A stretch of 64,000 bases of DNA. Source: Halodesulfovibrio sp. MK-HDV. GTDB taxonomy: Bacteria > Desulfobacterota > Desulfovibrionia > Desulfovibrionales > Desulfovibrionaceae. The stretch lies in NCBI RefSeq assembly GCF_009914765.1, contig NZ_WYDS01000019.1:1-64000 (forward strand). Reading direction: 5' to 3'. A model generated the notes under the pieces. That model was given only the letters and a program-made list of their open reading frames with translations. It was not told the DNA's origin and searched no databases. Position numbers and translations under genes: made by a program. Positions 4,002 through 27,965 of this stretch are shown here, piece by piece; the first letter of the stretch is position 1; each line of letters opens with the position of its first letter.

Positions 4002-4077
4002 GGGCGGTTAGCTCAGTTGGGAGAGCATCGGCCTTACAAGCCGAGGGTCACAAGTTCGAGCCTTGTACCGCCCACCA
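4002..4077 (+). tRNA. tRNA-Val (anticodon TAC), copy 1
   Basis: A complete 76-nt cloverleaf. The acceptor arm GGGCGGT pairs with ACCGCCC, the anticodon loop is CTTACAA, the T-arm has GTTCGAG, and the 3' CCA is encoded. Four identical copies lie in the window (4002, 5221, 5580, 6634). Confidence 0.97.
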
Positions 4078-4085
4078 TATAATGC

Positions 4086-4162
<77 letters not shown>

Positions 4163-4171
4163 TGAAATTTT

Positions 4172-4203
4172 AGCGCTTAAGCGAAAGCTTAAGCGCTTTT
4201 TTC
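4172..4203 (+). terminator. Terminator of tRNA cluster 1
   Basis: A perfect 11-bp stem (AGCGCTTAAGC / GCTTAAGCGCT) closed by a GAAA tetraloop and followed by T6. Confidence 0.9.
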
Positions 4204-4391
4204 TATTTCTAGCCCTTAGTTGGCGCTTCAATGTGCTTTCTTTCAAAAGTTCTCTAGAGAACACATGAAGGCAGTCCTCCTTTTCATTGCCTGATCTTCT
4301 ATCAGATGAAACAATTCTTCATTCGACTGCTTGCTTCACCTTTCCTTCCTTACTACATAAGAATCCAACAACGATATTTATTGGAGTGTGT

Positions 4392-5021
4392 ATGCTTTCC
4401 CTTACTTTTGTTTACGAAGACACCAAGCTTGTGGTGGTAAATAAGCCCAGCGGGTTGCTTTCTGTGCCGGGAAAAGGGGAAGAAAATCAAGATTCCGTGG
4501 AAACACGAATTCGTGAGCGTTATCCGCACTGCACTAAAATCCCAACTGTTCATCGGCTTGATATGGACACTTCCGGGTTGCTTGTGCTGGCTTTGACAAA
4601 GCGTACAAAGCGTGAGCTGTCTGAGCAGTTTCAAAATAGAGAAGTAAGCAAGCGATATATAGCCCTCATTGAAGGGCAGCTTGAAGAAGAAGGCGGTACG
4701 ATATCTTTGCCGCTGAGGATGGATTTAGCCAACCGGCCTTATAGTGTTGTTGATCTCGAAAATGGAAAGCAGGCTTTGACAGAGTGGCGCAATCTTGGTG
4801 TTGAAGGTGTGTATACTCGTGTAGAATTTATTTTGCATACAGGCAGAACACATCAATTGCGTCTACATGCTCTTCATGGCTTGGGTTTTCCTATTGTGGG
4901 CGACCGGCTCTATGGAAATGGTACTCAGGCAGGGCAGATGAAGCTACATGCAGCGTACCTGCGTTTTGTGCATCCTAAGACACAAGAAGTGTTAGAGTTT
5001 ATTTCAGAGCCAGATTTTTAA
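4392..5021 (+). CDS. RluA-family RNA pseudouridine synthase
   Basis: Converts uridine to pseudouridine in rRNA or tRNA. The 209-residue protein has the catalytic motif HRLDMDTSGLLV (Asp near residue 58), an early VVNKPSGLLSVPG strand and the RTHQLRLH motif near residue 160, so it is a minimal catalytic domain without an S4 domain. I chose ATG 4392 because GGAG sits five bases upstream; the frame's first 35 codons have no ribosome site. It lies between two tRNA clusters. It is a paralogue of the synthase at 15100, sharing the GLLSVPGKG block. Whether it acts on 23S rRNA or tRNA cannot be decided here. Confidence 0.88.
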   Translation: MLSLTFVYEDTKLVVVNKPSGLLSVPGKGEENQDSVETRIRERYPHCTKIPTVHRLDMDTSGLLVLALTKRTKRELSEQFQNREVSKRYIALIEGQLEEEGGTISLPLRMDLANRPYSVVDLENGKQALTEWRNLGVEGVYTRVEFILHTGRTHQLRLHALHGLGFPIVGDRLYGNGTQAGQMKLHAAYLRFVHPKTQEVLEFISEPDF

Positions 5022-5056
5022 GGGCAAGCTTACGTTGCGTGATTCTTTTCTGTAAT

Positions 5057-5079
5057 TGCTTGGCAAAGCAGCTTTTTTT
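5057..5079 (+). terminator. Weak terminator candidate after the pseudouridine synthase
   Basis: A 5-bp stem TGCTT/AAGCA followed by GCTTTTTTT. Short stem, so uncertain. Confidence 0.4.
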
Positions 5080-5176
5080 ATCTGTTGAGAGCCTGTTTGA
5101 TTGTAGAAAAACACGAAGCGTGCGGGGCTTGCGAAAGAATAGAGAATAAAAAAAGTACTTTTTTCAAGCTTTCTTG

Positions 5177-5205
5177 TTGACACCTGAGCGGGTTTTCCCT
5201 AAAAC
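5177..5205 (+). promoter_or_regulatory. Sigma70-type promoter of tRNA cluster 2
   Basis: TTGACA, 17 bp, TAAAAC, ending 15 bp before the tRNA-Val at 5221: the same geometry as the promoter at 3958. Confidence 0.75.
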
Positions 5206-5220
5206 GTGTCCTCGTTGAAT

Positions 5221-5296
5221 GGGCGGTTAGCTCAGTTGGGAGAGCATCGGCCTTACAAGCCGAGGGTCACAAGTTCGAGCCTTGTACCGCCCACCA
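5221..5296 (+). tRNA. tRNA-Val (anticodon TAC), copy 2
   Basis: Identical to the copy at 4002; first gene of a four-gene cluster ordered Val-Asp-Asp-Val. Confidence 0.97.
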
Positions 5297-5310
5297 TTCG
5301 ATAACGAAGC

Positions 5311-5387
<77 letters not shown>

Positions 5388-5451
5388 CTTGAAAGCAAGA
5401 GGCGAAAGCTTCATACAATTGAATATATATTTTTTCTCGTAAGAGAAATGC

Positions 5452-5528
<77 letters not shown>

Positions 5529-5579
5529 CTTTTTAGTAAAGCGGACTATATATAGTCTTGTTTTACGACCGAAAATTTC

Positions 5580-5655
5580 GGGCGGTTAGCTCAGTTGGGA
5601 GAGCATCGGCCTTACAAGCCGAGGGTCACAAGTTCGAGCCTTGTACCGCCCACCA
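5580..5655 (+). tRNA. tRNA-Val (anticodon TAC), copy 3
   Basis: Identical to the copy at 4002; last gene of cluster 2. Confidence 0.97.
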
Positions 5656-5660
5656 TTTTT

Positions 5661-5692
5661 AAGGACTGGATTTTTATCCAGTCCTTTTTTTT
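5661..5692 (+). terminator. Terminator of tRNA cluster 2
   Basis: Stem AAGGACTGGA / TCCAGTCCTT followed by T8, five bases after the tRNA. Confidence 0.92.
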
Positions 5693-5993
5693 GTCCAATT
5701 TATGTTTGCAACGGATTTATGTTTACAGTTGCTCGATAAGAAAATGATTTGGCTCATTGACGATACGTATAGCCATGGCGTTTTTATTGTCGATAAACAG
5801 TAGGCTACGTATGTTTCTTATAGAGAAATCCGTTGAAGTAATGTTTCTTCCATATTATGTAGTACGATAGAGTTATGCTGAACACTCTGTCACAGGAATA
5901 CACTCGAGTTTACTTTTGCGAAGGCTTAATGCACTTCGCTTTTTAACTTACTGTATTTTTTATTATATTTTTGAATTTTTGGAGAATAATCGA
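5693..5993. other. Intergenic region upstream of ridA
   Basis: About 300 bp, AT-rich, with no gene or clear repeat. It must carry the ridA promoter, but I could not place a convincing -35/-10 pair. Confidence 0.4.
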
Positions 5994-6368
5994 ATGGCAA
6001 CCGTAATTACAAGCGATAAAGCACCAGCTGCTGCAGGTCCATACTCACACGCAATCAAAGCTGCAGGTCTTGTCTTCACTGCCGGTCAGCTCGCTATTGA
6101 TCCTGAAACAGGAAAAGTAGCTGGAGATGCTGAAACGCAGGCTCGCCAGACTCTTACAAATATTAAGCATGTTCTGGAAGCCGCAGGCACTTCATTGGAT
6201 AGAGTCATTAAAGTTACTGTGTTTGCAACTAAGTTGGAATACTTTGCAGACCTTGCAAAAGTGTACACAGACTTCTTTAACGAGCCGTTCCCTGCACGCA
6301 GTGGAATGGAAGTTTCCCGTCTTCCAATGGATTCCATGTTTGAGATCGAAGTTATCGCTGAGAAGTAA
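5994..6368 (+). CDS. ridA: RidA family enamine/imine deaminase
   Basis: Hydrolyses reactive enamine/imine intermediates (for example 2-aminoacrylate) formed by PLP enzymes. At 124 residues it has the usual length. Visible marks are AAGPYSHAIKA at the N-terminus, VFTAGQLAIDPETG, the TDFFNEPFPARSGMEVSRLP block with the conserved Arg, and the C-terminal EIEVIAEK. Start ATG 5994 has GGAG nine bases upstream; a longer frame begins at 5916 without a ribosome site. It is monocistronic with its own terminator, between two tRNA clusters. Confidence 0.93.
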   Translation: MATVITSDKAPAAAGPYSHAIKAAGLVFTAGQLAIDPETGKVAGDAETQARQTLTNIKHVLEAAGTSLDRVIKVTVFATKLEYFADLAKVYTDFFNEPFPARSGMEVSRLPMDSMFEIEVIAEK

Positions 6369-6426
6369 GTTAGTTTGTGTGCATGTTGGTTCAGAATAGT
6401 TTTTGAATCAGCCAGAGTTATATGTA

Positions 6427-6459
6427 AACGGCAGTGACGAAAGTTGCTGTCGTTTTTTT
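6427..6459 (+). terminator. Terminator of ridA
   Basis: A 12-bp stem (AACGGCAGTGAC with GTTGCTGTCGTT, including G-U pairs), GAAA loop, then T7. Confidence 0.85.
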
Positions 6460-6594
6460 GTTATGAGCCTACGGAAATCGAGAGTGTTGCGGGTGGATAT
6501 TGTGAAGGTGCAGCCATTATATAATGTTCAGGCTCAAAAGACTTTAGTAGGTACTGTAGTTCGGAGAAAAAGTGCATAGAAGTTCGAATTTCTG

Positions 6595-6623
6595 TTGACT
6601 TCGGAGGGCTGTGCATATAGAAA
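6595..6623 (+). promoter_or_regulatory. Possible promoter of tRNA cluster 3
   Basis: TTGACT followed 15-17 bp later by TATAGA/TAGAAA, just before the tRNA-Val at 6634. The -10 is less clear than in the other two clusters. Confidence 0.5.
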
Positions 6624-6633
6624 CTTCTCCATC

Positions 6634-6709
6634 GGGCGGTTAGCTCAGTTGGGAGAGCATCGGCCTTACAAGCCGAGGGTCACAAGTTCGAGCCTTGTAC
6701 CGCCCACCA
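6634..6709 (+). tRNA. tRNA-Val (anticodon TAC), copy 4
   Basis: Identical to the copy at 4002. Confidence 0.97.
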
Positions 6710-6716
6710 TTTTTGC

Positions 6717-6793
<77 letters not shown>

Positions 6794-19736: not shown

Positions 19737-21791
19737 ATGGTAGAGCATGAAGCATTTGTTTCTCCAGATAAAAACAATACTCCGGAGAGCCGGCAGGCGT
19801 TGTTAAAGATTCTGGAGGCAGCAACAGGAATGGGGCATTTTGGATATCGGCTAAGTGAAGTTGCCGATGTTTCAAGCATGCTCACAGAAATTGCTGCCAA
19901 TGTAGAGGCTATCCACCCCTTTAAAACGATGGCATTTTTGCTGGTGGATGAAGAATCACATGATTTCGTTATGTCATGGTGTTCATCTAAAACAGAAGAA
20001 GCCAGCATTACCGATGCCTGCCGTGTGCTCATGGAAGACCATATGTTTTCCTGGGCGCTGCGTCGCAATCAGCCAACCACTGTTACCTCCGAAGGACTTG
20101 GAGACGTGTTGCTGCATCCACTGCAGACTTCTTCAGGGCCTGTGGGGATGTTTGTGGGCGTTTTGCAGGGCGATGAGCCGGCAGAAGATGTATCATTTTA
20201 TCTCCTTTCTATGACGCTTGTTGCAGCAAGCATCGCCATTGAAAACTTTTTTCTCTACAAGCAGCTTTCTGAAAGCAACAGCGAACTGGAAGGAAAAGTT
20301 ACCAGCCGTACAGAAGAATTGAGCGCTTCCAATAGACAGCTCAGACGTACTCTTCAAGAAAAAGAAACATACAAACAGCATTTAGAGCTGTTGTTCTCGT
20401 CCATGCAGGACGTGATGATTTCTGTTGATCCGGAACTTACCGTGCAAAGCATTAACCGTGCGGGTGAAGATTTGTTCGGTGTTATGCAGGATGATGTTGT
20501 GGGTAAGCTGCTGCCGCAGGTTATGCCTGACCTTGCATTGCGCTGTGATGAATTTTTCCACGACGTTCTTTCATACGGTGAACGCATCGTTGAAGAGCGA
20601 GTCGAGTTACTGTTAGATGCTGATGCGAGACATATCTTTATGATCAACTGCTCGCCGTTTGCATCCGGTGCTGATGGGCAACGTGGCGCTATGCTTATGC
20701 TGCGCGACATTACCCGCCTTGTTTCTCTGGAAGAACAGTTGCAGGAGCGACGTTCCTTCAAGAACATTATCGGTACCAGCAAAAGTATGCTCAACTTGTA
20801 TTCAATGCTTGAAAACCTTGTTGATCTGGACACAACTGTTCTTGTTACCGGTGAATCCGGTACGGGCAAAGAGCTTGTGGCAGAAGCGTTGCACCATAAT
20901 GGTGCCCGTGCAAACGGACCGCTTGTTCGTGTGAACTGCTCGGCATTGTCTGAAAATTTGCTGGAAAGCGAGTTGTTCGGCCATGTGCGCGGAGCATTTA
21001 CCGGTGCAACCAAAGACAAGGTCGGTCGTTTTGAAGCCGCTGAAGGCGGTACAATTTTTCTTGATGAAATCGGTGACGTGTCATTACGTATTCAGGTTCT
21101 TTTGCTCAGATTCCTTGAGTCACACGAATTTGAACGCGTAGGTGATACTGTAACCCGTAAAGCTAACGTACGTATTGTGGCTGCAACCAATGCAGACTTG
21201 CAGCAGCGTGTGGCACAGGGCGTGTTCCGCTCAGATTTGTTTTACAGACTGAATGTTATGAACGTGCATCTTCCGCCGTTGCGTGAGCGTCTGGATGATT
21301 TGGCGCTGTTGGTGCAGTTCTTTATTGATATGTTCAACGATACGTTGGGGGTTTCGATCTCCGGTTTGTCAGAGCAAGTTATGCAAGTTTTCATGAACCA
21401 TCCTTGGCCGGGTAATATTCGAGAATTGAAACATACTATCGAGCATGCTTCTATTCTTGCTCGAACCGGACGTATTACGCCGGATCACCTGCCAGTTCAG
21501 ATCCTGGGTGCAGATCCGTTGTCCAGTTCTGATACTGTTCGTTATCCGCCGTACGGTGGTGGTTATGGCGGCGGGTATGGTTCACATTACTCCCCGCAGC
21601 CGCTCATCAGTCCGAATGCCTATATGCCAGCTTCCATGCAACAGGCGCGTGTGCCTTGTCATACCGTTTCTGTTGAAGAAGTTCAGGCGGCGATTGCTTC
21701 TGCTAATGGTAATAAAACAGCGGCAGCTAAATTGCTTGGTATGGGCAGAGCGACCTTGTACCGAAAATTAAAAGAACTTGGTTTGGGATAA
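19737..21791 (+). CDS. Sigma54-dependent transcriptional activator (GAF-PAS-AAA+-Fis)
   Basis: 684 residues. A GAF-like sensor occupies roughly 20-180, a coiled coil about 180-220 (SNSELEGKVTSRTEELSASN) and a PAS domain about 220-335 (VMISVDPELTVQSINRAGEDLF). The AAA+ domain has Walker A GESGTGKE near 371, the sigma54-contact loop GAFTGA near 417, and GGTIFLDEIGD. A Gly/Tyr-rich linker (YGGGYGGGYGSHY) joins it to a Fis-type helix-turn-helix at the end (NKTAAAKLLGMGRATLYRKL). ATG 19737 is used; a TTG three codons upstream is possible. It is followed at once by a tandem palindrome, a -24/-12 promoter and a structured RNA, which are its probable targets (inference). The signal it senses is unknown. 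Confidence 0.93.
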   Translation: MVEHEAFVSPDKNNTPESRQALLKILEAATGMGHFGYRLSEVADVSSMLTEIAANVEAIHPFKTMAFLLVDEESHDFVMSWCSSKTEEASITDACRVLMEDHMFSWALRRNQPTTVTSEGLGDVLLHPLQTSSGPVGMFVGVLQGDEPAEDVSFYLLSMTLVAASIAIENFFLYKQLSESNSELEGKVTSRTEELSASNRQLRRTLQEKETYKQHLELLFSSMQDVMISVDPELTVQSINRAGEDLFGVMQDDVVGKLLPQVMPDLALRCDEFFHDVLSYGERIVEERVELLLDADARHIFMINCSPFASGADGQRGAMLMLRDITRLVSLEEQLQERRSFKNIIGTSKSMLNLYSMLENLVDLDTTVLVTGESGTGKELVAEALHHNGARANGPLVRVNCSALSENLLESELFGHVRGAFTGATKDKVGRFEAAEGGTIFLDEIGDVSLRIQVLLLRFLESHEFERVGDTVTRKANVRIVAATNADLQQRVAQGVFRSDLFYRLNVMNVHLPPLRERLDDLALLVQFFIDMFNDTLGVSISGLSEQVMQVFMNHPWPGNIRELKHTIEHASILARTGRITPDHLPVQILGADPLSSSDTVRYPPYGGGYGGGYGSHYSPQPLISPNAYMPASMQQARVPCHTVSVEEVQAAIASANGNKTAAAKLLGMGRATLYRKLKELGLG

Positions 21792-21834
21792 TTATCCCGA
21801 AATAAAAATACTGAAGGCGTCTCAGGATGTCTCT

Positions 21835-21866
21835 AAGTGTCTCATGAGACGTCTCATGAGACACTT
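21835..21866. promoter_or_regulatory. 32-bp perfect palindrome: activator-binding site and/or terminator
   Basis: AAGTGTCTCATGAGAC is followed immediately by its exact complement. It equals two tandem copies of the palindromic 12-mer GTCTCATGAGAC. A degenerate partial copy (GGCGTCTCAGGATGTCTC) lies just upstream. T6 follows, so it can act as terminator for the activator gene. Its centre is also 89 bp from the GG of the -24 box, the usual distance for an upstream activator sequence, and TGTC-N6-GACA is the type of site Fis-like activators bind. Confidence 0.75.
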
Positions 21867-21936
21867 TTTTGTTTTGTCACTTTTTTTTTACGAATCATAA
21901 CTATTTGAAATATTATAATTAATTAATTTTGAAAAG

Positions 21937-21953
21937 TTGGCATTGTGCTTGCT
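21937..21953 (+). promoter_or_regulatory. Sigma54 (-24/-12) promoter of the structured RNA
   Basis: TTGGCATTGTGCTTGCT matches the TGGCAC-N5-TTGCW consensus with the required ten bases between GG (21939-21940) and GC (21951-21952). A 60-bp AT-rich stretch between it and the palindrome suits DNA bending by IHF. The predicted start is near 21964. Confidence 0.75.
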
Positions 21954-21963
21954 ATAGTAGAAA

Positions 21964-22427
21964 TACAAAGACTGCTCGTCACAATGCAACAGTTGACGAC
22001 GGGATTACAAATTTCGGTCAGCAGTATCCTATACGATACTGTACTACGCCTGAAGGTGTAAAATCTTCCGACAATCTTGGGGAAAAGGTTGTTCGAGCCC
22101 CGCTGGGGAATAGTAAGGCTCATGGAAGGTTTTGCACGCATTTGTCTGCACCTCAGGGTGCAGAACAGGGGATAGCCGGGTGAAGATTTATCTTCATCGG
22201 GGCACGGGGGGGTATAGTACTCAAACTATACCACAAATAGAGTAGGTAATATCTCACTCTATTTCGCAGAAAAATCTTTTGATTTTGTGACTGCGGGGGA
22301 AACTGGTGGACGGTCTTACCGTCACAGTTAACGCAACGTACTGCGAGAATGTTATTCGGCTAAATAGCCGTTAGTGAGTGCTATAGAAAAAAAGCTGAGT
22401 ATCTGTCTCGATACTCAGCTTTTTTCT
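21964..22427 (+). ncRNA. Large structured RNA of unknown family, sigma54-driven
   Basis: About 460 nt between a -24/-12 promoter and an intrinsic terminator, dense in hairpins: CAGTATC/GATACTG (22022-22041), ACAATCTT/AAGGTTGT (22071-22092), TCTGCACC/GGTGCAGA (22145-22164), TGAAGA/TCTTCA (22181-22196), GGTATAGT/ACTATACC (22211-22232), AATAGAGT/ACTCTATT (22236-22263), CGCAG...CTGCG (22265-22295), GACGGT/ACCGTC (22309-22323) and CGGCT/AGCCG. I looked for tmRNA, 6S, RNase P, SRP, group II intron and cobalamin riboswitch hallmarks and found none. The only frame of any length (TTG at 21929, 84 codons) would begin upstream of the transcript start. Function unknown. Confidence 0.6.
22387..22425 (+). 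terminator. Terminator of the structured RNA
   Basis: AGCTGAGTAT / ATACTCAGCT, 8-nt loop, with A-run on the left and T6 on the right. Confidence 0.92.
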
Positions 22428-22518
22428 GTAACCATTGTTTAGCGATCTACAAAAAAATTTCATCGCTCTTCGCTGGTGAATCAGAGCATGCCGCGTTACG
22501 CCCGTTGGTATGCTCTAC

Positions 22519-22575
22519 TTGATAACATTTCTGCACATGGAATCGTCTCATTCCGTGTGCAGAGTTTGTTATCAA
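22519..22575. repeat. Long imperfect inverted repeat
   Basis: TTGATAACATTTCTGCACAT... on the left pairs over about 25 bp with ...GTGCAGAGTTTGTTATCAA on the right, six-base loop, few mismatches. No T-run on the plus strand. Confidence 0.65.
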
Positions 22576-22612
22576 AAAAAGCACTGAACAAATGTTACCA
22601 TCTGTTCAGTGC
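22574..22612 (-). terminator. Terminator of acs
   Basis: On the minus strand GCACTGAACA pairs with TGTTCAGTGC (12-nt loop) and is followed by T7. It lies about 160 bp past the acs stop. Confidence 0.85.
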
Positions 22613-22772
22613 CCAAAATTAATTCAAGGGGGGGAATGCTATGAATGTTTTCATGCATCCCTTGAGCAAAGGTACGCAATCAAAGCCTCCAACATGTGCT
22701 GATAAGCTGTGCACGATTGAAGCAGTCAGATTGCGTCCTTTGTCTCCGGGAAGAGCGGTAGAAGACTGAAGC

Positions 22773-25253: not shown

Positions 25254-27965
25254 GTGAGTCATTCGACGCTAAAACAGATGTTTCGACCGACCTCTGTGGT
25301 AATAATTGGTGCTTCTGAAGAGTCTGGAACCCCTGCCTGTGACTGTATGCAAAACTTGCTCGGCGGTACGTTTCTGGGACCAATACTTCCGGTTGTGACA
25401 CAGCCGGATTCGCCGGATACCATTTTCGGTCAGCCCGTTTACACCGCCATTGATACACTCCCTATTACACCGGACCTTGCCATCATTTGCGTTGATGCAG
25501 ACGAGGTTCCTTTTTACATAGAAGAGCTTGGTAAGCGTGGAACACAGAACGCAATTCTGTTTTCTTCCGGTTTTTCACGGTTCAACACAAAGCAGGCTAC
25601 TCGTAAGCGTGAACGACTCGTTGCGCTGGCGCATAAATTTTCTGTACGGTTGCTGGGGCCTAACGGGCTCGGCTTCATCAACCCCTCCCTCGGCATTAAT
25701 GCCAGTCTTGCTTCATCTCCTTTTACCACGGGCAAAGTTGCCTTTGTCACACAGTCAGATTCCTTGTTTACCTCCGTGCTCGATTGGGCAGTGTCCAAAT
25801 CTCTTGGCTTTTCTCACGTAATTTCTCTCGGAGATGTGCTTGATGTGGGCTTCAGTGAAGTGCTGGATTATTTGAACAGAGACATGAATACCCGTGCCGT
25901 GCTGCTGTACCTTGAGTCAGTTGCCAATGCTCGCGAGTTTATGTCTGCTGCGCGTGCACTTTCGCGGTCAAAGCCTGTCATCGTTGTTAAAGCGGGCAAA
26001 TTCCATGCGGCAGAGCAAGCTGTGGCTGCACATACAGGTATGATTCTGGGTGCGGACGAAGTGTACGAAGCCGCATTCAAACGAGCCGGTATGCTTCGGA
26101 TGGATTCCATTGATTCTGTTTTCGACACCATTCAGGCGCTTGCATGGTCAAAGCCGCTGAAAGGTAAACGGTTGGCTATTGTCACAAACGGTGGAGCACC
26201 GGCATTTATTGCGACTGACCTGTTGCTAAAGGGAGGCGGAGAGCTTGCTGAGCTGACAGATGAAGCGTGTCAGCATTTGGATGACGCACTTGGAAGCAGT
26301 TGGTCGTATTGGAATCCACTAGTAATTGATGCCAAGGCTGATGCAGACATGTACGCAAGCGCTATTAAACCGCTGCTGCGTGACAGTTCTGTGGATGGCA
26401 TCCTTGTGTTGCATATCCCTACAGCCGGTGTGGACAGTGCTGCTATTGCTGAACAGGTAGTGAAAACCTGCAAGCGCAGTAAAAAGGTAATCCTTACAAG
26501 CTGGCTTGGTGGAGGCGATGGTGACATAGCGCGAAACATATTTTTTAAGGCAAAGGTGCCTTCCTACGTTACGCCGGACAGTGCTGTGCGTACCTTCCTG
26601 TATCTTGTGCAGTACAGGAGTAACCAGATTAAGCTGGCGGAAGCACCAGAGTCGCGGCCTGATAGCAAAACAGACGTGTTGAAAAGTCGTGCGATTGTTT
26701 TGCAGGCGCTCGAAGAGAAGCGTCAGATGCTTACCGTGCAGGAAGTTGAAGCATTACTTGCGGCCTACGACATTAACTGCATCACTACACGCAGTGCAGA
26801 TTCAGTAGAGCAGATTGCAGCCATTGCAGATGAGGTGGGGTATCCGCTGGCGATAAAAGTGATCTCGCCGGATATTTTCCGTAAGTCACAGGTCGGCGGG
26901 GTTATGCTGGATATTCAGGATAGCGCTGAAGCCACAGCCGCTGCTGAATCTATAGTAATGAATGTTGCCCAGTATCAACCATCCGCACGCATTAACGGGT
27001 TTGCAGTCCAGCGAATGACGCAGCGTTTGCGTGGGGTAGAGCTTTCTATCGAAATCGAAACTGATCCGCAGTTCGGTCCTGTTATCCGTTTCGGGCAGGG
27101 TGGCTCCTTGGCTCATATTATACAGGATACGCAAACAGAGTTGCTACCGTTGAATATGAGCCTTGCAAAAGAGCTTGTAGCCTCTACACATGTGAGCAAG
27201 CAACTTGTAGGTAACAAAACAGTTACAGGCGTGGATACGCAGGCTGTATATGAAATGCTTGTATCTATTTCACAGATGTTGATTGATATACCGGAAGTTT
27301 TTGAATTAGAGATTAATCCCGTGCAGGCAGATTCCCGTGGAGCGTTTGTTTTCGATGCTGCTGTTCGTGTGGCATGGACAGATATGGGTGGTGCAGATCA
27401 ACTTGCAATTTGCCCGTACCCTGCTGAACTGGAAGAAATCATACAAGTGGGCGATGACCTGACTGTTCGTCTCCGTCCGATTCGGCCTGAGGATGAACAC
27501 GCCCACTGGGGTTTTGTGGAGAACCTCAGTCCGCAGGACAGGCGTTTCAGGTTCTTTGGTAATGTTGGCGAGTTGCCGCGTTCTGAAATGGTTAAGCTGA
27601 CACAGATTGACTACGACAGGGAGATGGCGTTCATTGTTCAGACTATTCCTGAAGATGGAAAAGAGCCGCTTACCATCGGGTCTGCCCGTGCTATGATTTC
27701 AACGGACAATGAAACCTCTGAGTTTGCAGTGGTTGTTCGTAGTGACTGGAAGCGCAAGGGGCTGGGGCGCATGTTAATGGCGCACCTCGTGAATTATCTG
27801 CGCTCCCGTAATACAAAGCAGATTACAGGCGAAGCTCTTGGCGATAACAAGAATATGGTCGAGCTTGCGCGATCCCTTGGGTTTGTGGTTTCAAAAGATT
27901 TTGATGACGATACGTATCACTTCACACTGGATTTAAAAGATGAAGAGCCTGACGACGGGCTATAG
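25254..27965 (+). CDS. Protein lysine acetyltransferase (Pat/PatZ type: acyl-CoA synthetase-like + GNAT)
   Basis: 903 residues. An ADP-forming acyl-CoA synthetase-like region comes first: CoA-binding SVVIIGASEESGTP at the start, succinyl-CoA-ligase-like domains to about 470, and an ATP-grasp part about 485-715. A GNAT acetyltransferase follows from about 735 (LRPIRPEDE, then RKGLGRMLM in the acetyl-CoA loop). This order is that of the Pat/YfiQ enzymes that acetylate Acs and other proteins; the synthetase part usually senses acetyl-CoA. Start GTG 25254 has AGGAG five bases upstream. Its divergence from acs supports control of Acs activity (inference). Confidence 0.88.
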   Translation: MSHSTLKQMFRPTSVVIIGASEESGTPACDCMQNLLGGTFLGPILPVVTQPDSPDTIFGQPVYTAIDTLPITPDLAIICVDADEVPFYIEELGKRGTQNAILFSSGFSRFNTKQATRKRERLVALAHKFSVRLLGPNGLGFINPSLGINASLASSPFTTGKVAFVTQSDSLFTSVLDWAVSKSLGFSHVISLGDVLDVGFSEVLDYLNRDMNTRAVLLYLESVANAREFMSAARALSRSKPVIVVKAGKFHAAEQAVAAHTGMILGADEVYEAAFKRAGMLRMDSIDSVFDTIQALAWSKPLKGKRLAIVTNGGAPAFIATDLLLKGGGELAELTDEACQHLDDALGSSWSYWNPLVIDAKADADMYASAIKPLLRDSSVDGILVLHIPTAGVDSAAIAEQVVKTCKRSKKVILTSWLGGGDGDIARNIFFKAKVPSYVTPDSAVRTFLYLVQYRSNQIKLAEAPESRPDSKTDVLKSRAIVLQALEEKRQMLTVQEVEALLAAYDINCITTRSADSVEQIAAIADEVGYPLAIKVISPDIFRKSQVGGVMLDIQDSAEATAAAESIVMNVAQYQPSARINGFAVQRMTQRLRGVELSIEIETDPQFGPVIRFGQGGSLAHIIQDTQTELLPLNMSLAKELVASTHVSKQLVGNKTVTGVDTQAVYEMLVSISQMLIDIPEVFELEINPVQADSRGAFVFDAAVRVAWTDMGGADQLAICPYPAELEEIIQVGDDLTVRLRPIRPEDEHAHWGFVENLSPQDRRFRFFGNVGELPRSEMVKLTQIDYDREMAFIVQTIPEDGKEPLTIGSARAMISTDNETSEFAVVVRSDWKRKGLGRMLMAHLVNYLRSRNTKQITGEALGDNKNMVELARSLGFVVSKDFDDDTYHFTLDLKDEEPDDGL

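Follow-up and report, generated by a model that had tools for sequence, protein, structure and literature searches.

In the portions drawn on here, Kazakov et al. (2015; PMC4641369) describe noncoding RNAs (ncRNAs) downstream of the Desulfovibrio vulgaris genes DVU0653 and DVU0679, both of which encode response regulators, and a further ncRNA, upstream of DVU2357, that is targeted by DVU2359, a single-component regulator encoded divergently from its sigma54 promoter. Dv_sRNA2, which lies behind DVU0679, was found to be expressed by tiling arrays, according to the sections used of Rajeev et al. (2011; PMC3333781). From these sections, a sigma54 activator with a neighbouring ncRNA is a type of circuit already known in the order to which the bacterium studied here belongs. 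More distantly, the Pseudomonadaceae have CbrB with CrcZ and CrcY, for which the excerpts consulted report an RpoN-dependent sRNA tied to cbrB and cbrB-crcZ co-transcripts (PMC6292655), and RtcR is described, in the part of the source used, as a sigma54 enhancer-binding protein controlling the rsr-yrlBA-rtcBA operon with its Y RNAs (PMC7790460).

In this study, we analysed a 64,000-nt stretch of DNA (the window) from a member of Halodesulfovibrio, a genus of marine sulfate-reducing bacteria, and characterized a locus in which an activator gene is followed by tandem palindromes, a promoter and a structured RNA. The sites, the promoter and the RNA structure are conserved, one strand of the RNA region is favoured, and no reading frame is common to the six RNA sequences compared. 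We consider it probable that a one-component activator, acting at a sigma54 promoter, turns on a regulatory RNA of about 465 nt that works in trans. This agrees with the first-pass annotation, which had read the locus as a sigma54 activator with a structured RNA, and both the absence of a matching Rfam family and the covariation described below support it.

The activator gene (19737–21791, + strand, from the ATG to the last base of the stop codon) encodes, by Pfam and its orthologs, a one-component sigma54 enhancer-binding protein with an N-terminal sensor domain, PAS, AAA+ and a Fis HTH. Pfam recognized Sigma54_activat, the AAA lid, the Fis-type HTH and PAS, and the protein contains the sequence RGAFTGA, which we take to be the sigma54 contact loop; no receiver domain and no GAF family were among the 11 Pfam families listed for it. 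The protein had been called a GAF-PAS-AAA+-Fis activator, and of this description the last three domains stand, whereas the first found no counterpart in that list. In a modest AlphaFold model of residues 1–333 (four sequences, mean pLDDT 73, pTM 0.44), an alpha/beta domain and a PAS-like domain were seen together with a long helix. E. coli DhaR(N) took rank 2 in a Foldseek search with this model, and because the superposition was poor (TM 0.23–0.25, rmsd 26), a GAF identity for the N-terminal domain is plausible but not proven. Orthologs of the activator are present in all ten Halodesulfovibrio genomes searched, our own included, five of them at 92–95% and four at 50–53% identity. Searching with an alignment of the N-terminal part revealed matches at E ≤ 1e-30 in 39 of 288 family genomes, with the ten genus genomes at 1e-160 or better and the best match outside the genus at 1.3e-56; those outside the genus were treated as paralogs.

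Behind the activator gene, tandem TGTCTC-N2-GAGACA palindromes occupy 21835–21866 and are the probable binding sites of the activator; the same sequence also scores as a terminator hairpin and is thus terminator-like for the activator gene. An AT-rich spacer lies between them and a –24/–12 sigma54 promoter at 21937–21953 (+ strand; TTGGCATTGTGCTTGCT), so that all three elements named in the first-pass annotation are indeed present. The starts of the two palindromes lie 88 and 100 bp upstream of the –24 GG. The GG-N10-GC of the promoter is kept in ten of ten genus genomes, and GTCTC-type palindromes lie upstream of it in nine, with a diverged GTATC-N2-GATAC in the remaining one (G003); across these genomes the palindromes start 80–125 bp before the –24 GG, and promoter and palindromes are kept even in genomes whose activator shares no more than roughly 50% identity. 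In the bacterium's own genome, the exact core GTCTCNNGAGAC was counted four times, twice at this locus, and the reversed control pattern once; inspection by eye of about 300 bases on each side of the other two copies found no sigma54 promoter, and the activator looks to be a local regulator. GTCTC, the half-site of the palindromes, was also seen at 22405–22409 in the loop of the RNA terminator, where it is invariant in the six sequences, and at 22545–22549 in the next large hairpin downstream of the RNA.

The structured ncRNA spans 21963–22427 on the + strand (about 465 nt); we infer that it is transcribed, and its start was placed from the promoter. It consists of domain 1 (22021–22201), which is covered by our covariance model R1 and has its closing helix at 22044–22052/22166–22175, domain 2 (22207–22386), which contains an invariant 10-bp long-range helix (22213–22222/22376–22385), and an intrinsic terminator stem of 17 pairs (22386–22426), in which 100% of the cells with letters on both sides are paired. 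The + strand fold of 21964–22432 gave a z of –9.5 (0 of 100 shuffles as stable), and the six RNA sequences, all from one clade, gave z values from –5.3 to –11.0 (60 shuffles each). A good fold was also obtained for the reverse strand (z –7.7), and therefore folding energy alone cannot fix the strand of the RNA. The consensus of the six sequences comprises 148 pairs in 15 helices, where at least nine hairpins had been predicted, and 93.9% of its cells pair. Thirty-eight of the 148 pairs have changed on both sides and still pair, compared with a mean of 15.6 in shuffles, none of 500 being as high, and with 3–12 in a control with slid partners; homologous loci behind the same activator thus show the covariation that the first-pass annotation expected of a genuine RNA. 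Such pairs are present in 14 of the 15 helices, the exception being the long-range helix, which is uninformative in this respect because it is invariant. With 38 on + and 37 on –, the double-change pairs cannot tell the strands apart. The wobble test alone does so, with G-U:A-C cells in the consensus fold at 108:11 on + and 44:46 on –, and this points to the + strand. Fully conserved stretches, partly paired and partly unpaired, include AAATTT, GGTCA, GGGGAAAAG, CGCTGGGGAATAG and GGGGGGTATAGTACTC. Among unpaired columns, 69 of 193 are invariant, a smaller share than among paired ones (146 of 296), which does not favour contacts through exposed loops.

The claim that the transcript holds no credible gene was upheld, in that the six RNA sequences do not share any reading frame of 20 aa or longer. 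Two sets of short frames, each present in three of the six, were not counted as genes: frames of 39, 74 and 61 aa that begin at a GTG in alignment column 104, and frames of 22–25 aa that begin at an ATG in column 30. Nor were a frame of 83 aa in the RNA region of G008 and an 84-aa frame in the bacterium's own genome that begins upstream of the promoter. No Rfam family reached its gathering score at the locus, the best sub-threshold match within 21600–22700 (24.8 bits, E 0.022) falling below a gathering score of 100. Neither Rfam nor ARAGORN gave a match at the locus to tmRNA, 6S, RNase P or SRP RNA, whose hallmarks had already been reported as absent.

BLASTN with the RNA gave matches in at least 107 of 198 genomes at E ≤ 1; long matches were found in six genomes, our own included, and the others listed, none longer than 50 bases, were put down to chance. 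Among the matches listed, the RNA was found in six of the ten genus genomes, each time beside a close ortholog of the activator. Model R1, built on domain 1 and run under strict filters, matched seven of 288 family genomes at E ≤ 0.1, namely the same six and G342. The G342 match (E 0.053) was judged to be chance and set aside because of the ORFs around it, which we take to be pyrimidine-pathway genes; this match aside, the model found the RNA in no other genus among the 288 family genomes. The viral contigs and plasmids searched gave no match, and a literature search covering titles and abstract openings found no published record of the RNA. The suggestion that it may be a new family gains weight from the lack of an Rfam match at gathering score and from the covariation among the relatives. 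An RNA family that is supported by covariation, lacks an Rfam entry and has a probable dedicated regulator offers an expression and a function that are directly testable.

The other four of the ten genus genomes have the activator ortholog, the palindromic sites and the promoter, and then a thioredoxin-like ORF of 136–138 aa (Pfam and NCBIfam matches sub-threshold only) with a structured 3′-UTR of 254–267 nt (z –4.0 to –6.4) that has a terminator at its end. Since a promoter of the same kind would drive a thioredoxin-like mRNA there, the output of the module is not a structured RNA in every genome, and its initial description as an activator with a structured RNA applies to six of the ten genomes but not to these four. 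Strong matches to the thioredoxin-like protein (E 4e-49 or better) are confined to those four among 199 family genomes, with some match at E ≤ 1e-5 in 29 of the 199. The same search gave no match to the protein in our own genome or in G002, G008 and G009. Those in G001 and G005 were all distant, and in both genomes a match to the activator adjoins the distant thioredoxin-like gene. Because distant thioredoxin-like genes also adjoin apparent activators with palindromes, the activator together with a thioredoxin-like gene may be the older module. By eye, thioredoxin-like genes at three loci (L110, L112 and L116) lie beside apparent activator genes that have palindromes of the AGTGTAAC type; L116 carries a GG-N10-GC promoter-like element as well.

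It is conceivable, although we hold it to be somewhat unlikely, that the RNA descends from the transcript of these sister genomes, the thioredoxin-like gene having been lost and its structured 3′-UTR having become a stand-alone RNA. The succession of activator ortholog, sites, promoter, thioredoxin-like ORF and structured 3′-UTR in four of ten genomes is what such a descent would start from, and both outputs carry GGGGA motifs (e.g., CUUUUGGGGAAAAG in G006 and G007). Each of the six RNAs has four copies of GGGGA, a count equalled by 3–7 of 500 shuffles, and their G4 runs were equalled by 0–19 of 500. In the sister UTRs, which were taken as fixed 330-base stretches running beyond their terminators, the enrichment is uneven, with GGGGA equalled by 10, 2, 30 and 22 and G4 runs by 9, 82, 157 and 5 of 500 shuffles. 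The alignment of the sister UTRs was poor and leaned to the – strand (G-U:A-C 9:2 on +, 23:1 on –). Homology of the two transcripts is nevertheless not claimed: some collinear shared words were visible by eye, but nhmmer found nothing in either direction, model R1 had no match in the four sister loci, and tblastn of the sister ORFs against the RNAs gave a best E of 0.37. Smith–Waterman comparison of four of the six RNAs with the four transcripts gave z values of –0.7 to 3.0 and was unbeaten by shuffles in only 3 of 16 pairs, so that the signal is inconsistent.

A broader view, which we regard as doubtful, is that a sensor-activator with its own sites and promoter exchanged its output within the genus, that the RNA part is the shared effector, since both outputs carry GGGGA motifs, and that it would represent a new class of RNA that works by presenting G-rich loops. 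The contrast with the sister genomes provides a tractable example of a regulatory RNA replacing, or arising from, a coding transcript under one promoter.

An unlikely alternative is that the RNA titrates a protein in the manner of CsrB/RsmZ or CrcZ. CrcZ and CrcY contain several AAYAAYAA (CA) motifs. The repeated G-rich motifs and a layout like that of cbrB-crcZ, the crcZ promoter being RpoN-dependent, would suit such a role. However, AAYAAYAA is absent from all six RNAs (0 in each), and GGA, the CsrB/RsmZ motif, occurs 5–9 times where base composition predicts 8.4–9.5 and is thus not enriched. These counts argue against titration of CsrA or of Hfq/Crc and leave at most some other protein.

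The sigma54 promoter is overlapped at 21929–21958 by a sigma70-like element (TTGAAA-18-TATAGT, 10 of 12, the second hexamer being preceded by TG), from which transcription might begin outside the control of the neighbouring activator, and seven promoter-like sites were present in the scanned region compared with 5.4 in shuffles. We think this improbable, given that both hexamers vary among the six sequences in the alignment, whereas GG-N10-GC and the palindromes are kept as described above.

There is little to recommend a role for the RNA as leader or attenuator of some element downstream. Conserved structured sequence does run on past the terminator (22432 to about 22772, + strand, by consensus fold), with structure to about 22745, and it may represent a second RNA or an extension by read-through. 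It has a DNA match at E ≤ 0.001 in five of the ten genus genomes, and its consensus fold favours + (G-U:A-C 60:15 on +, 24:17 on –), the split test of this region being rough since the cut point in G009 was misplaced. Thus, of the earlier proposal of an RNA of about 460 nt ending in a terminator, the terminator stem was recovered, but the conserved structure does not stop there. In addition, the long-range helix of domain 2 and a local hairpin exclude each other. The hairpin has no double change and is the form shown by the single-sequence fold of 21964–22432. The long-range form is the lower by 0.9 (G000) and 2.9 kcal/mol (G005), and the hairpin form by 1.7 (G009 and G002), 4.1 (G008) and 8.9 kcal/mol (G001); the two largest margins for the hairpin, in two of the six sequences, speak against a leader. 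Moreover, the next gene downstream, for acetyl-CoA synthetase, is on the opposite strand (convergent). Near it, one protein (25254–27965) combines CoA-binding, succinyl-CoA-ligase-like, ATP-grasp and GNAT acetyltransferase domains; elsewhere in the window, at 4002–6793, four tRNA-Val(tac) and four tRNA-Asp(gtc) genes are clustered, each inside a repeat of about 120 nt.

Finally, an untranscribed intergenic region that folds by chance is extremely improbable in view of the z values of all six sequences, the covariation and the wobble asymmetry.

In the preferred reading, that of an activator switching on a regulatory RNA, the enhancer-binding protein would sense a signal through its N-terminal and PAS domains, bind the tandem TGTCTC-N2-GAGACA sites and then activate RNA polymerase–sigma54 at 21937–21953, both the sigma54 dependence and the activation by this protein being expected from what is known of its family. 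The product would be a two-domain ncRNA of about 465 nt ending at the intrinsic terminator. We would guess that it acts in trans after transcription, and that its G-rich loops and linkers (GGGGAA at 22079–22084, GGGAA at 22106–22110 and GGGGGG at 22207–22212) may be presented to an RNA-binding protein or to C-rich stretches of mRNA.

How far the locus resembles known systems can now be stated. It had been likened to circuits of the CrcZ or Qrr type, with an RNA unlike either; the motif counts and the Rfam search bear out the second point, but the kind of circuit is not new, in view of the D. vulgaris precedents in the parts of those reports used here. LuxO is a sigma54 activator that controls the Qrr RNAs, which are about 100 nt in length, whereas the RNA described here is about 465 nt and has no Rfam match. 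The unit resembles CrcZ/CrcY, as far as the excerpts go, in the RpoN-dependent sRNA tied to cbrB, and differs in lacking AAYAAYAA, in its one-component activator and in its extensive covarying structure. RtcR, as described in its source, is likewise a sigma54 enhancer-binding protein controlling an RNA-bearing operon; no Rsr or Rtc protein was found among the three window neighbours scanned with Pfam. In all six genomes with the RNA, the sigma54 activator gene is next to it, and a conserved –24/–12 promoter with upstream sites precedes it. On the published descriptions used, the closest parallels are DVU0679/Dv_sRNA2 and DVU0653, from the same order, in which a sigma54 activator has its ncRNA target directly downstream of its gene; both of these are two-component response regulators, while no receiver domain is listed by Pfam for the activator described here. 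DVU2359, by the same descriptions, is a sigma54 activator of the single-component kind, like the one described here, and has an ncRNA as its target, but its gene is divergent from the promoter, which in our case lies downstream of the activator gene. The D. vulgaris ncRNAs are likened to ours by description, the material compared not including their sequences. Judged from sequence, and with that comparison being one of descriptions, the RNA is a new, lineage-restricted family within a known kind of circuit, and what appears to be new is this RNA family, together with the finding that one conserved switch has RNA as its output in some genomes and protein in others.
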